A stretch of DNA of 64,000 nt from Halorubrum sp. PV6 (GTDB lineage: Archaea; Halobacteriota; Halobacteria; Halobacteriales; Haloferacaceae): the NCBI RefSeq assembly GCF_003990725.2, contig NZ_CP030064.1, forward strand, positions 372,001 to 436,000. Direction: 5' to 3'. Position numbers and translations under genes: made by a program. The stretch's first letter is position 1. Each line of letters begins with the position of its first letter. This document shows positions 28,931-34,962 of the stretch, in pieces. The notes beneath the pieces are model-generated. The model saw nothing but the letters and a program-made list of their open reading frames with translations. It was not told the origin of the DNA and did not search any database.

Positions 28931-29731
28931 TCACGCGCGTTCGACGACCGAAGCGAGGGGGTCGGCCTCCGCGATGAACGAGTCGAGTCTTTCGTCTACC
29001 CAGTCGACGACCGTCCGGTCTGTCGATTCGAGCACGCACCGTGGGTTGTTCCGCCGGTCGTAGGCGGTCACGCAGGCGATGTCGTCGTACCGGAAGACGC
29101 CGTACCGTATCGGCTCCGGCGAGACGTACACCACCGCGTCGTCGTCCTGCAGGGCCCTGTCGGTCGCCGGGCCGAACGTCGATATCGACTCCTCGACGAC
29201 GTCGCGGTCGATGACGAGCGTCACGGACGCCCCGTCGTCGAGCGCGCCCGCCGCGGCCTCGTTGAACTGCTGGATGACGATCGGCGACACCGCGCGGATC
29301 GTCGACCCCGCGCCCTCCCGGAGCAGTTCCGTGAGCCGGTCCACCGCGGCGAGCGGGTTCCTGTCGGTCGTGACGGTCAGCTCTCCGGCGTCGACCGCCT
29401 CGGTCGGGAAGTCGGCGCCGACGCGTTCGAGGTCGGCGGCGAACTGGCCGCGCCGCTCCGCGAGTTCGACCTCGTCGAGTAGGGCCTCGTACGCGTCGTG
29501 GACCCGTTTTCCGGTCGGCGTCACGCGGTAGGCCCCGCCGCGTTTGACGACCCAGTCTCGCTCGCGGAAGCCGGAGAGAATGCGCTGCACCGTCGTTCGC
29601 GTCGCGTCGACCGTGGCCGTGAGCCCCGCCGGACGGCGCGGGTCCTCGCGGAGCGCCCGGAGCATGGCGACCCGGACGGCTGACCCGGCGAGATACTGTG
29701 CGCCGCCGTGTCCGTCCTCGTCGCTTCTCAT
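28931..29731 (-). CDS. Winged-helix transcriptional regulator with C-terminal effector domain
   Basis: A 266-residue protein. The N-terminal winged helix (AVRVAMLRALREDPRRPA ... TRTTVQRILSGFRERDW) is followed by a domain resembling the methanogen/halophile regulator C-domain (DUF1724/FilR1-like) with VTLVIDRDVVEESISTFGP. Such proteins respond to unknown ligands. A TATA-like TATTATTAAG lies about 34 bases upstream. Target unknown. Confidence 0.8.
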   Translation of the reverse strand: MRSDEDGHGGAQYLAGSAVRVAMLRALREDPRRPAGLTATVDATRTTVQRILSGFRERDWVVKRGGAYRVTPTGKRVHDAYEALLDEVELAERRGQFAADLERVGADFPTEAVDAGELTVTTDRNPLAAVDRLTELLREGAGSTIRAVSPIVIQQFNEAAAGALDDGASVTLVIDRDVVEESISTFGPATDRALQDDDAVVYVSPEPIRYGVFRYDDIACVTAYDRRNNPRCVLESTDRTVVDWVDERLDSFIAEADPLASVVERA

Positions 29732-30213: not shown

Positions 30214-30307
30214 CGATATTAATTTACTATTTATTAGTATTCAAATATCCTAGATTAGTTAGCGCAAAACGGGTTAGATGTTATTATCACGCGATTTCTT
30301 GTGTAAT
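30214..30307. promoter_or_regulatory. AT-rich divergent promoter region
   Basis: Strongly AT-rich DNA in an otherwise GC-rich chromosome. Leftward, ATTTATTAG (about 30227-30239) sits about 20 bases from the GTG at 30213. Rightward, GTTATTATC (30280-30288) sits about 24 bases from the ATG at 30308. It separates the broken gene from the small secreted-like protein. Confidence 0.55.
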
Positions 30308-30439
30308 ATGCACGAAAGTGTTGCAGACTACGTGGCAGAGCACCCGAAGATGGCCGGCGTCCTGTTCACCGCGCTCCTCCTGTTGACGCAGGCGGCGCCC
30401 GCGGCGGCGAACGCAGCAGTTGGAAACCCCGGCCCTTAA
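30308..30439 (+). CDS. 43-residue signal-peptide-like protein (DUF7503-type)
   Basis: A 43-residue protein: short polar N-terminus (MHESVADYVAEHPKM), a hydrophobic helix (AGVLFTALLLLTQAAPAAAN) and the tail AAVGNPGP. It resembles a family of tiny haloarchaeal proteins I believe is called DUF7503, which share the YxxxHP(K/R)M start, one helix and a C-terminal Gly-Pro. The AAA/ANA pattern could be cleaved by signal peptidase, leaving a peptide of about seven residues. It has its own TATA box. Its stop codon overlaps by bases the stop of the opposing CHAT protease gene. The function is unknown. Confidence 0.75.
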   Translation: MHESVADYVAEHPKMAGVLFTALLLLTQAAPAAANAAVGNPGP

Positions 30440-32559
30440 TCAATACTTAATCGATCGGTCCAGTGTAGCTGATCGTTCATAAAAACAGGGAGCATTTCTA
30501 GGTCAAAAAATGCAGTTATGTCACCCCTAGGAATGTCCTCAGAGGTTATCTTGGATGGAACGTAATAATCCTCTTCGACTGTCTCTAGATTGAGCGCAGC
30601 GAGGGAGCCAACTCCGTGGTTTCTATTTGGGAATACCTCGGCAGACACCGTCCAACGGTTATCGGCCTGCTTTTGAAGATCGGCGACAACGGCGATGCCG
30701 CTCCTATTCTGGCATATCGTCGTTGCTCCGTCGCCAACCACGATGTACTGATGCCCGGTGATCAGTTCCCGCTTCGCGACGTGAAGTGCGGTTCGGAGGT
30801 TGAACCCGCTGTTCATCAGCCGCGCGATGATGCGGCCGAGTTGGGTCGCCGGCGAGTTCGCCACGTCGGTGAGGGTGACGATGCCGCCGCGAGAGCCGCG
30901 GTGGACGAGCGCCTCGCCCTGGTGGTACGACTGACAGGCGTTGAGGAGGAACGCGCTGACGCCGACCGCGAGGTCCTCGTTCGTCAGGTCGAGGTACTCG
31001 TCGGTACACTGCATCCCGCGGTCGTCGACGTGCCCGATGTAGTGAAGGAAGTCGACGTCGGAGGCGAGCGCCTCGCGCATCTCCTCGCGGGTGAGGTCGT
31101 GGCGCACGTCGATGTCGAACTGGACCATGTCGCGGAGGCCGTAGAGGTCGGCCACTTCCCCCTCCGCGCGCATCTGCTCGTCGTTGCAGACGACGAGGAC
31201 GGAGATGCGCGACTGCTCGACCGCGCCCGCCTCCAACCGGCGGTGGTACGCGTCGAGCGTGGCCTTGTTGGCGTCGAGCGGGACGCCGGCGCCGACCCAC
31301 GCGTGCTCGACCGTGTCGACCGGCTCCGGCTGCACGAACTCGGTGTCGGCCGCCACCGCGCCGCGCTCTCCCGACGCGTCGGCGCCGCGGGTCGGTGTGG
31401 CGGGCGGCGCTTCGGCGGCTCCCCGCACGAACTCGTTCGGCCCGAGCGCCGCCGCCTCGGTCCCCGGTCCGCGGAAGAATCCGAGGCCGTTGTCCGCGCC
31501 GGCCGTCGCGGGCGTGACCGTCTCGGGCGCGCGGACGATCGACAGCTCGCCGGCCACGAACGGGAGCAGTTCGACGTTCTCCGGCTCGGGGCGCACGTCC
31601 GTGGTCAGCGTCCACTGGGGGAGTTCCGACTCGACGCGCTCGAAGGGGACCGCGAGGTACTCGCCCAGCCGCGTCGCGAGCGGGAGGTCGTACAGCCGCC
31701 CCCAGTCGAGGTCAAGCGCGGTGGTCTCGCGCTCGTGGAGGTCGACCGGGTAGAACCCCTCGGTGCGGGCGAGACAGTCGAAGTGAAACGCCTGCCGAAG
31801 CGCCTCGGCCGCCCGCCGCTCGAAGTCGGGTTCGAGCGCGTGCGTCCACCCGTCGCCTTCGATCCGCGGCGGGTCGCCGGGGACCACCTTGGCGGCGAAG
31901 TAGTACGCCAGCGAGACCACCGGGTAGAGGTAGCGGTACTCCGGCGGGACGACGATCCGCACCCCGGAGTCGGTCGGCTCGACTCGGTCGGGCACCCGGA
32001 GCCGCTCGCCCGGTTCGATCAGCGGCGGGTGCCCGCGGAGCGTCGGGAACGACCGCTCCGGGCTCGTCGTCTGGAGCGCGGAGCCGAGCAGCGAGACGGC
32101 GTCCATCAGCGACTCGGGGTCCGTCGGCGTCTCGATCGTTCCCGCCGGAACCTGGTGGAGCGACCGGAACCCGAGCGTCACCTCGGCGGGCGCGTTGAGG
32201 TCGATCCGGGTCGTCCGGTCCGTCGTCGACACGGAGAAGGGGGAACTGAACGAGAGGTACAGCTTCGTCGGGGCGGGGTCGATTCCGACATGGTACTCGC
32301 CCGCCGGCAGCGCGTAGTCGTCGCCGCGAGTGAGCAGCGTCCCGTCGCCGGAGCGGGCCTCGACGACCGCGACGCGCGGGATCTCGATCCCCCCGGTCTC
32401 GACGGTCACGCTCGCGTCGACGGGGAAGTAGTGTGCCGTCTCGGGGGCCGCGGCCGGCTCGACCGGCCGGTCCGTGTACAGCTCGAACTGCGTGTTCTCG
32501 ATGTGGTCCGTGACGGTGAGCCCGGCGGCGTCGGGGAGCGGGTCGATGTCGATGCTCAT
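30436..32559 (-). CDS. CHAT domain (caspase-like) protease
   Basis: A 707-residue protein. Residues from about 470 form a CHAT domain, the caspase-like peptidase also known from bacterial immune and separase-related proteins. The catalytic dyad is visible as His510 in LHYIGHVDDRG and Cys542 in LLNACQSYHQGE, so it is probably active. The first 450 residues are an uncharacterised region, partly beta-rich (RIDLNAPAEVTLGFRSLHQV), presumably for sensing or substrate recruitment. There is no signal peptide or membrane helix. The ATG at 32557-32559 begins MSIDIDPLPDAAGL; the upstream frame is shadow sequence. It overlaps the 43-residue gene tail to tail by 4 bases, suggesting functional linkage. Confidence 0.88.
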   Translation of the reverse strand: MSIDIDPLPDAAGLTVTDHIENTQFELYTDRPVEPAAAPETAHYFPVDASVTVETGGIEIPRVAVVEARSGDGTLLTRGDDYALPAGEYHVGIDPAPTKLYLSFSSPFSVSTTDRTTRIDLNAPAEVTLGFRSLHQVPAGTIETPTDPESLMDAVSLLGSALQTTSPERSFPTLRGHPPLIEPGERLRVPDRVEPTDSGVRIVVPPEYRYLYPVVSLAYYFAAKVVPGDPPRIEGDGWTHALEPDFERRAAEALRQAFHFDCLARTEGFYPVDLHERETTALDLDWGRLYDLPLATRLGEYLAVPFERVESELPQWTLTTDVRPEPENVELLPFVAGELSIVRAPETVTPATAGADNGLGFFRGPGTEAAALGPNEFVRGAAEAPPATPTRGADASGERGAVAADTEFVQPEPVDTVEHAWVGAGVPLDANKATLDAYHRRLEAGAVEQSRISVLVVCNDEQMRAEGEVADLYGLRDMVQFDIDVRHDLTREEMREALASDVDFLHYIGHVDDRGMQCTDEYLDLTNEDLAVGVSAFLLNACQSYHQGEALVHRGSRGGIVTLTDVANSPATQLGRIIARLMNSGFNLRTALHVAKRELITGHQYIVVGDGATTICQNRSGIAVVADLQKQADNRWTVSAEVFPNRNHGVGSLAALNLETVEEDYYVPSKITSEDIPRGDITAFFDLEMLPVFMNDQLHWTDRLSID

Positions 32560-34857: not shown

Positions 34858-34875
34858 CCGCCCCGGCCGGGCGTC

Positions 34876-34938
34876 GGCACCACCGGTATCCCTTTCGGCA
34901 CCACCGGTATCCCTTTCGGCACCACCGGTACCCCTTTT
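34876..34938. repeat. Three tandem 21-bp repeats
   Basis: GGCACCACCGGTATCCCTTTC occurs twice exactly (34876-34896, 34897-34917) and a third time with two or three changes (34918-34938). Each unit contains ACCGGT, a palindromic core. The array lies just upstream of the ketopantoate reductase gene and covers most of its promoter region. Confidence 0.85.
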
Positions 34939-34962
34939 GAACACCGGCGCATTCGGTCTCCC

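Follow-up and report, generated by a model that had tools for sequence, protein, structure and literature searches.

At positions 30308..30439 (+) of the window, which is the whole 64,000-nucleotide stretch of Halorubrum sp. PV6 DNA analysed here, a reading frame encodes a protein of only 43 residues. The question raised by this locus is what so short a protein does. The initial annotation regarded it as the precursor of a secreted peptide: cleavage after an Ala-rich segment would release about seven residues. The protease gene that converges on the small gene, and the hypervariable block that the two genes share, were absent from that annotation. These features point to a protease partner, instead of or besides a diffusible pheromone.

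The small protein and its convergent protease

Reading from the ATG at 30308 through the TAA at 30437-30439 gives MHESVADYVAEHPKMAGVLFTALLLLTQAAPAAANAAVGNPGP, a protein of 43 residues. This protein matched the Pfam family DUF7503 (PF24335) with an E value of 6.7e-20 and 70.9 bits against a cut-off of 27, and the match covered model positions 1-42 of 42. Judged by this match, the reading frame is a real gene for a full-length DUF7503 member. Pfam gives no function for the family, and our literature search for DUF7503 found no paper that names it. In a family profile search, DUF7503 was present in 337 of 391 sampled haloarchaeal genomes (334 above the cut-off) and in 74 of 86 genera; among 14 control genomes, it was found in one, that of Haloferax volcanii.

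A longer reading frame could begin in frame at 30278. We prefer the start at 30308 because of the family alignment and because of a TATA-like peak at -35..-32, which is a group property of 60 homologous genes. All 60 of these fetched genes start with ATG, and a Shine-Dalgarno-like string was found in two of them. From these features we infer that the DUF7503 gene probably has its own promoter and produces a nearly leaderless mRNA.

DUF7503 proteins share a common layout: after a short polar start comes the sequence [HN]P[KR]MxGxLFTxLLLLSQAG, then an Ala-rich segment, a stretch that varies and Gly-Pro at the C-terminus. In the window protein, codon 13 (30344..30346, +) encodes the conserved Pro of the [HN]P[KR] motif ahead of the hydrophobic helix. 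Family conservation delimits a signal-peptide-like part at codons 14-35 (30347..30412, +), which comprises Lys14, the hydrophobic helix and the Ala-rich segment. Codons 36-43 and the stop (30413..30439, +) encode the variable tail AAVGN followed by the conserved PGP, as delimited by pS and GP conservation.

Several elements of the initial annotation were borne out when 183 distinct members were compared. At the HP(K/R)M start, the type of residue is conserved: the residue following the Pro is Arg in 107, Lys in 66 and Gln in one (nine do not match the pattern), that is, a basic residue at one fixed place before the helix in 173, and Met comes next in 157. The signal-peptide-like build (polar start, hydrophobic helix, Ala-rich end) also holds, with a signal-peptidase-like -3/-1 pattern of Ala or Val at P[KR]+18 in 177 members and Ala at +20 in 172. 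The terminal Gly-Pro is present in 174, and its codons use synonymous variants freely. The nine members without it include a group that ends NGGxI(R/S) or similar and occurs in multi-copy genomes. Between the Ala segment and (P)GP, the sequence varies strongly, and the last ten residues carry no charge in 159 members. The helix sequence itself is conserved far above our expectation for an ordinary signal peptide.

On the opposite strand, a putative CHAT-type (clan CD) protease of 707 residues is encoded at 30436..32559 (-), and its stop codon overlaps that of the DUF7503 gene. The fold and the His and Cys motifs are like those of clan CD peptidases, although the Pfam CHAT score lies below the curated cut-off of 24, both for the whole protein (E 0.001, 19 bits) and for its C-terminal part (E 0.00013, 21.9 bits). 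The AF2 model of the protease had a pLDDT of 83 and a pTM of 0.81, and Foldseek matched this predicted structure to separase (E 6.6e-07). Predicted residues 315-617 were aligned with gingipain RgpB (Z 19.6, 239 aligned residues, 2.9 A), separase (Z 16.8, 226 residues, 3.8 A) and Craspase (Z 14.2, 217 residues, 3.8 A). According to these models, the neighbour protein has a clan CD peptidase fold; its proteolytic activity is putative. The H[YF]xGH (His) and LN[AGS]C (Cys) motifs are both present in all 159 homologues longer than 600 residues. In the window protease, they delimit the catalytic region, residues 506-542, from HYIGH to LNAC (30934..31044, -).

Other parts of the protease gave less distinct results. 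The N-terminal part had no clear structural match, which by itself says little. The C-terminal domain was modelled with 112 residues at a pLDDT of 80; its best Z was 4.7, and Foldseek gave no match at E <=0.001, a result that is not informative on the novelty of the fold. A sequence search of solved structures with the protease gave no match at E up to 10, and neither protein matched NCBIfam at E up to 1. A 19-residue stretch above 1.6 on the Kyte-Doolittle scale was found in 22 of the 159 homologues, so that most have no clear membrane segment, and we saw no export signal.

The closest named relatives of the window protease belong to Halorubrum species, with 85% identity at best. When distant paralogs are counted, CHAT relatives occur in 365 of 391 genomes of the class at E 1e-20. 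Outside the class, distant relatives were found in four of 196 genomes of the phylum searched, and all four belong to one other family. These four loci (L269-L272, in genomes G451, G460, G442 and G433) have no clear small or GP-ending partner; a helix-less GP-ending ORF beside the CHAT relative at L271 probably stands there by chance. The genome of the window itself carries a distant second CHAT paralog (L220, G000:C1:967906-968958), which has lost both catalytic residues and is without a convergent GP-ending partner. Another locus, L273:71-7310, has three consecutive CHAT genes on one strand, with about 90 nt between their matched stretches and without a detectable small partner.

Pairing of the two genes across haloarchaea

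We hand-picked 60 loci from the match lists, all with DUF7503, so that 48 genera were represented. A protease homologue was convergent (tail-to-tail) with the DUF7503 gene at all 60 of these chosen loci. The 3' ends of the pair were -38 to +152 nt apart at 59 loci and 992 nt apart at one. In a larger set of loci, the median gap between the two 3' ends was 1 nt, and they overlapped in 60 of 190 cases. At L112, the protease match was limited to the C-terminal part, and the same place (L227) shows a gene split over two frames. In eight multi-copy genomes, each of the 29 loci fetched, of 38 matches listed, had its own convergent CHAT copy, and the DUF7503 tails differ among the copies of one genome.

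The pairing was also observed when the search started from the protease. In a scan of named genomes, the best 78 loci of 522 candidates were taken, and a convergent DUF7503 gene (E 1e-3) was present at 70 of the 78; 69 of these 70 end in GP. Haloferax elongans and H. larsenii are among the species in which the two genes adjoin. Among the remaining eight, L189 and L195 have helix-less GP-ending partners and L166, L171, L172 and L194 have no partner. L185 has a flank of just 2 nt, and L161 was missed here, yet is not partnerless in the census described below. DUF7503 was lacking in 54 genomes. For the 20 of them that were listed, 11 had no CHAT match at E 1e-20, three had a distant match (E 1e-61 to 1e-148) and six had a strong match; all six carry a helix-less repeat form of the partner.

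In a census of 241 distinct CHAT genes with 3' flank, 191 had a DUF7503 gene (182 GP-ending and nine not), 21 had another convergent GP-ending ORF and 29 had neither. The figure of 191 in 241 is no prevalence because the census mixes loci fetched via DUF7503 with loci fetched via the protease; the sample of 78 loci is fairer. Both catalytic residues are kept in 25 of the 29 partnerless genes and lost in four, including L220.

Our literature search found no description of a DUF7503/CHAT pair. Neither protein matched a PADLOC defence model at E up to 1, which leaves room for an unlisted system. A mobile or viral origin was rejected, given that no phage record matched and that searches of viral contigs with the alignment of each protein confirmed no relative. 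Plasmid records gave 13 matches, all haloarchaeal.

The hypervariable block at the junction

A contiguous hypervariable block extends over both genes at 30413..30720, as delimited by pS, GC3, co-variation and trees. It is AT-rich, comprises the tail of the small protein and the C-terminal domain of the protease, and was seen in two genera. In 34 Halorubrum-type pairs, the pS of the protease was 0.27-0.46 over the first 600 codons and 0.64-0.84 in the last hundred, and GC3 dropped from 0.90-0.95 to 0.48-0.64 in the same last hundred codons. The boundary is sharp and falls within residues 613-624 of the window protease: from residues 604-613 to residues 624-633, pS changes from 0.43 to 0.77 and GC3 from 0.89 to 0.48. 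By this rise and drop, the hypervariable C-terminal domain is placed at about residues 614-707 (30436..30720, -).

On the other side of the junction, the pS of the small gene was 0.68-0.80 in the last eight codons as against 0.22-0.28 in codons 1-35 (29 genomes). For close pairs of the small gene (34 genes), pN was 0.43 at codons 36-40 as against 0.025 at codons 1-35. The GP codons in the Halorubrum-type set had a pS of 0.69 and not one amino-acid change. Conservation of the last six to eight residues, which the initial annotation proposed as a check, is split: GP is fixed, whereas there is almost no constraint on the residues ahead of (P)GP, and by that check this counts against the secreted-peptide reading. 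Its emphasis on a tail of about eight residues as the important part is supported, with GP conserved and the Ala motif rightly placed.

The same block pattern was observed in 20 pairs of g34, another genus from another family, where aligned values were used for the small gene in place of per-position values, which are distorted by a tail indel. No such change was seen in six neighbouring genes, which were covered in 26-33 of 33 loci. The largest rises at their 3' ends were those of ppa (pS 0.28 to 0.43, with GC3 still at 0.89) and of a regulator gene (pN 0.14 to 0.25, with flat pS). A seventh neighbour, TFB, fell outside the loci compared. The labels ppa, AstE, thrC, panE, CBS and TFB are our own reading of the translations. 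The regulator (28931-29731, -), which lies upstream of the pair, has an HVO_A0261 N-terminal domain and a FilR1 middle domain, and is complete in 28 of the 33 Halorubrum-type loci. Elsewhere in the window, a short tandem repeat at 34860-34940 encodes VPKGIPV repeatedly on the minus strand; it lies between two ORFs that we take to be threonine synthase-like and ketopantoate-reductase-like from their translations.

Positive selection on the tail was not supported by dN/dS, the close-pair ratio being 0.27 at codons 36-39. Over codons 36-40 this measure is unreadable because synonymous sites are near saturation (pS 0.74-0.79). Since synonymous and nonsynonymous change are both raised in the tail, the variability of the block points to import of old alleles or to balancing selection; a locally higher mutation rate might also produce it.

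The tail and the C-terminal domain vary together. Among the 16 pairs with the closest protease cores (1.5-3.0% different in Halorubrum and 1.0-3.0% in g34), the C-terminal domain differs by at least 50% in 13 and 10 pairs, respectively. Among the 16 pairs with the closest C-terminal domains, 15 in Halorubrum and 16 in g34 differ at two or fewer of six tail positions; the mean tail difference over all pairs is 0.56. The partial Mantel correlation between tail and C-terminal domain given the core was 0.28 in Halorubrum and 0.48 in g34 (0 of 9,999 permutations each), which is no proof of binding because adjacency or linkage alone would make the two co-vary. At the nucleotide level, the values were 0.42 (0 of 9,999) and 0.43 (1 of 9,999). 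The control correlation, tail with core given the N-terminal half, was not significant (8,331 and 1,149 of 9,999). An argument that would go beyond linkage is that both ends are hypervariable, that the block is limited to these two ends and that GP is fixed inside it.

Trees were compared at two levels of support. In Halorubrum at support 0.9, the C-terminal and core trees have no split in common, and the C-terminal tree contradicts five of seven core splits; neither N-terminal part is at odds with the core at any split, and these two parts disagree with each other at one. At support 0.7, all parts conflict: between N-terminal and core trees the conflicts number 9 of 19 and 13 of 26 splits, and between core and C-terminal trees 17 of 19. 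In g34 at support 0.9, C-terminal and core trees conflict at none of five splits, and one of seven splits of the protein's first quarter conflicts with the C-terminal tree, so that the trees are weak evidence in this genus.

Possible roles of the tail and the protease

Seven Haloplanus-type loci lack the hydrophobic helix and carry 2-13 copies of the tail. Six genomes of genus g18 have 13, 7, 4, 5, 10 and 7 units of 13 residues, for example YTADGNSGGISGP, and a tandem-repeat program reported 13 copies of 39 bp at L200. The units are in frame, and are near-uniform inside one genome and different across genomes. These g18 forms retain the upstream sequence, the start and the overlap with the CHAT stop codon. 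L189, from a named Haloplanus metagenome-assembled genome, has a two-unit form, and among named proteases the one encoded there is closest to that of L200 (77% identity). The usual form with a helix is found in sister genomes of g18, where the tails read GNSGAISGP or SNGAATSGP, and Halococcus thailandensis (L195) has a helix-less partner with a single tail. Together with the helix, the tandem forms lack the [HN]P[KR] site, and they have no visible export signal; internal GP recurs in them without a stop codon. Ahead of the first repeat, L205 has no Lys or Arg and L203 has one, at position 4, and the CHAT partners of both are full length. Thus, the helix is dispensable in some lineages.

GP-ending partners also occur outside DUF7503. 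A GP-ending convergent ORF was found beside 21 of 50 CHAT genes without DUF7503, as against 10 of 1,030 control gene ends. Several partners of divergent CHAT paralogs are single-helix proteins with tails of up to about 45 residues, which share with DUF7503 only the GP end and, in most of them, a basic residue ahead of the helix. Other divergent paralogs have helix-less partners (L216, L217 and L277), and at L264 and L265 the GP of the partner is followed by xNP. Genome G160, of the same family, has 12 CHAT-model matches (L214, L218, L221, L224 and L262-L268 among the loci) and several convergent single-helix partners that end in GP, GPxNP or REP.

The shared block, the co-variation, the loss of the helix with repetition of the tail and the GP-ending partners outside DUF7503 argue that the tail is the functional unit of the small protein and most likely the cognate ligand of the protease. 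We consider it rather probable that the DUF7503 gene and its convergent CHAT gene form one two-gene module, in which the GP-ending tail is the peptide ligand and the variable C-terminal protease domain its receptor.

Four other explanations were weighed against this ligand and receptor pair. The one that survives best is a pheromone, close to the initial proposal: the small protein would be cut after the Ala-rich segment, and a GP-ending peptide of 8-9 residues would be exported, re-imported and sensed by the C-terminal domain of a cytosolic CHAT protein. The conserved -3/-1 pattern and the mostly uncharged last ten residues agree with such a secreted precursor, and a hypervariable ligand/receptor cassette resembles the allotypes of known pheromones. 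In Haloferax volcanii, the density signal resists proteinase K and is termed a small molecule and not a large peptide (PMC12240190), although a short peptide might still escape the enzyme. The degree of helix conservation is not that of an ordinary signal peptide, and the helix-less tandem arrays, having no visible export signal, argue further against export. Pheromone secretion is possible, but we regard it as unlikely.

Gingipain and separase cleave after basic residues, and some bacterial proteases activate gasdermins. The CHAT protease might similarly cut the small protein, for example after the Lys or Arg before the helix, and free a membrane-active peptide; a basic residue at one place in nearly all members and best fold matches to just these two proteases fit this idea. 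However, the Haloplanus-type forms have neither the helix nor [HN]P[KR] although the CHAT partners at L205 and L203 are full length, and hypervariability lies in the tail and not at the basic site. This substrate role is rather less likely still than a pheromone, and cleavage after Lys/Arg as the main function is disfavoured. Because the site vanishes along with the helix, the basic residue more likely sets the orientation in the membrane.

SecM-like leader peptides cause translational arrest, and a conserved GP-stop with free codon choice could reflect ribosome arrest or slow termination at Gly-Pro-stop, the gene being a regulatory leader. This is very improbable and was rejected as the main reading: the adjoining gene is convergent at all 60 loci and not downstream on the same strand, internal GP is repeated without a stop in the tandem forms, and partners with much longer tails retain GP. 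Mere antisense or 3'-end regulation of the convergent genes, with the tail constrained as RNA and not as protein, would suit the many overlapping or abutting stops, but synonymous variation in the GP codons and pairs intact across gaps of up to 152 nt and one of 992 nt make it equally improbable.

Returning to the ligand and receptor pair, the following mechanism can be proposed. The tail ending in Gly-Pro would be matched to the C-terminal domain of the protease and would bind it directly. Because the matched ends adjoin where the two genes meet tail to tail, a single recombination event of about 300 bp could swap the ligand and receptor ends together and preserve the match. The conserved helix may hold and cluster tails at the membrane, where they would dock the protease via its C-terminal domain. 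In Haloplanus-type genomes, a tandem array would replace the helix in clustering the tails. Clustering is a usual way of switching caspases on, and it may control the activity of this protease through induced proximity, in whichever direction. Clustering of the protease fits because helix and tandem array can be read as alternative ways of presenting tails; we put forward this detail only tentatively. The substrate of the protease and the cellular output are conjectural parts of the model.

The membrane may separate ligand from receptor, because the Ala-x-Ala pattern suggests cleavage and an extracytoplasmic tail, and the protease has no clear membrane segment in most homologues and no export signal that we saw. 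As far as sequence patterns indicate, the protease and the partners without a helix look like cytosolic proteins, whereas the signal-peptide-like pattern would place the tail outside. A secreted peptide that is re-imported reconciles this pattern with a cytosolic receptor, but not with the helix-less forms.

Haloarchaea mate by cell fusion, and therefore an archaeal identity system is conceivable. Recombining alleles, kept diverse by selection, would set which tail controls which caspase-like protease and distinguish kin from non-kin. Recognition would rely on a peptide passed between cells or follow cell fusion, and the protease would execute the response, possibly cell death. We regard this as a speculative extension of the model, with the odds against it.

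Related arrangements are known. In agr and comQXP of Firmicutes, adjoining sequences encode the ligand and receptor ends, and these change together as a single block. The present locus likewise has a contiguous hypervariable block over both ends, in two genera and with flat neighbours, the ligand and receptor roles here being putative. Unlike in agr and comQXP, the receptor would have a protease fold, the genes are convergent, the ligand would be linear with a fixed GP end, and no kinase or modification enzyme was seen paired with it. The nearest archaeal idea that we found in the literature is that of the VARTIG modules of Thermococcales, which have a recombining hypervariable C-terminal domain and for which self/non-self recognition is among the proposals (PMC8416519). 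The DUF7503/CHAT pair is like them an archaeal locus with a recombining hypervariable C-terminal domain; unlike it, VARTIG centres on large, predicted secreted Ig-domain proteins, and the authors report no closely resembling modules in other archaea (PMC8416519). In a multicellular bacterium, a hypervariable target that carries a CHAT domain has been described (PMC10907252). For DUF7503/CHAT, the joint variation of the tail and the last protease domain between species suggests a previously undescribed pair in which a short tail is matched to a protease.

In Haloferax volcanii, caspase-type hydrolysis has been detected and, in the accessible part of the report, no gene is assigned to it (PMC3615174). 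That activity is haloarchaeal like the pair described here, and the CHAT protein is a candidate source. A caspase-fold protease with a co-varying mini-protein in most haloarchaea would be a concrete candidate gene for archaeal caspase-like activities that are still unassigned. The pairing also supplies a context for a Pfam family without a function, and the pair would be a tractable place for studying the co-evolution of ligand and receptor specificity. If the identity reading is true, most haloarchaea would possess a peptide-controlled, caspase-type switch with allotypes.
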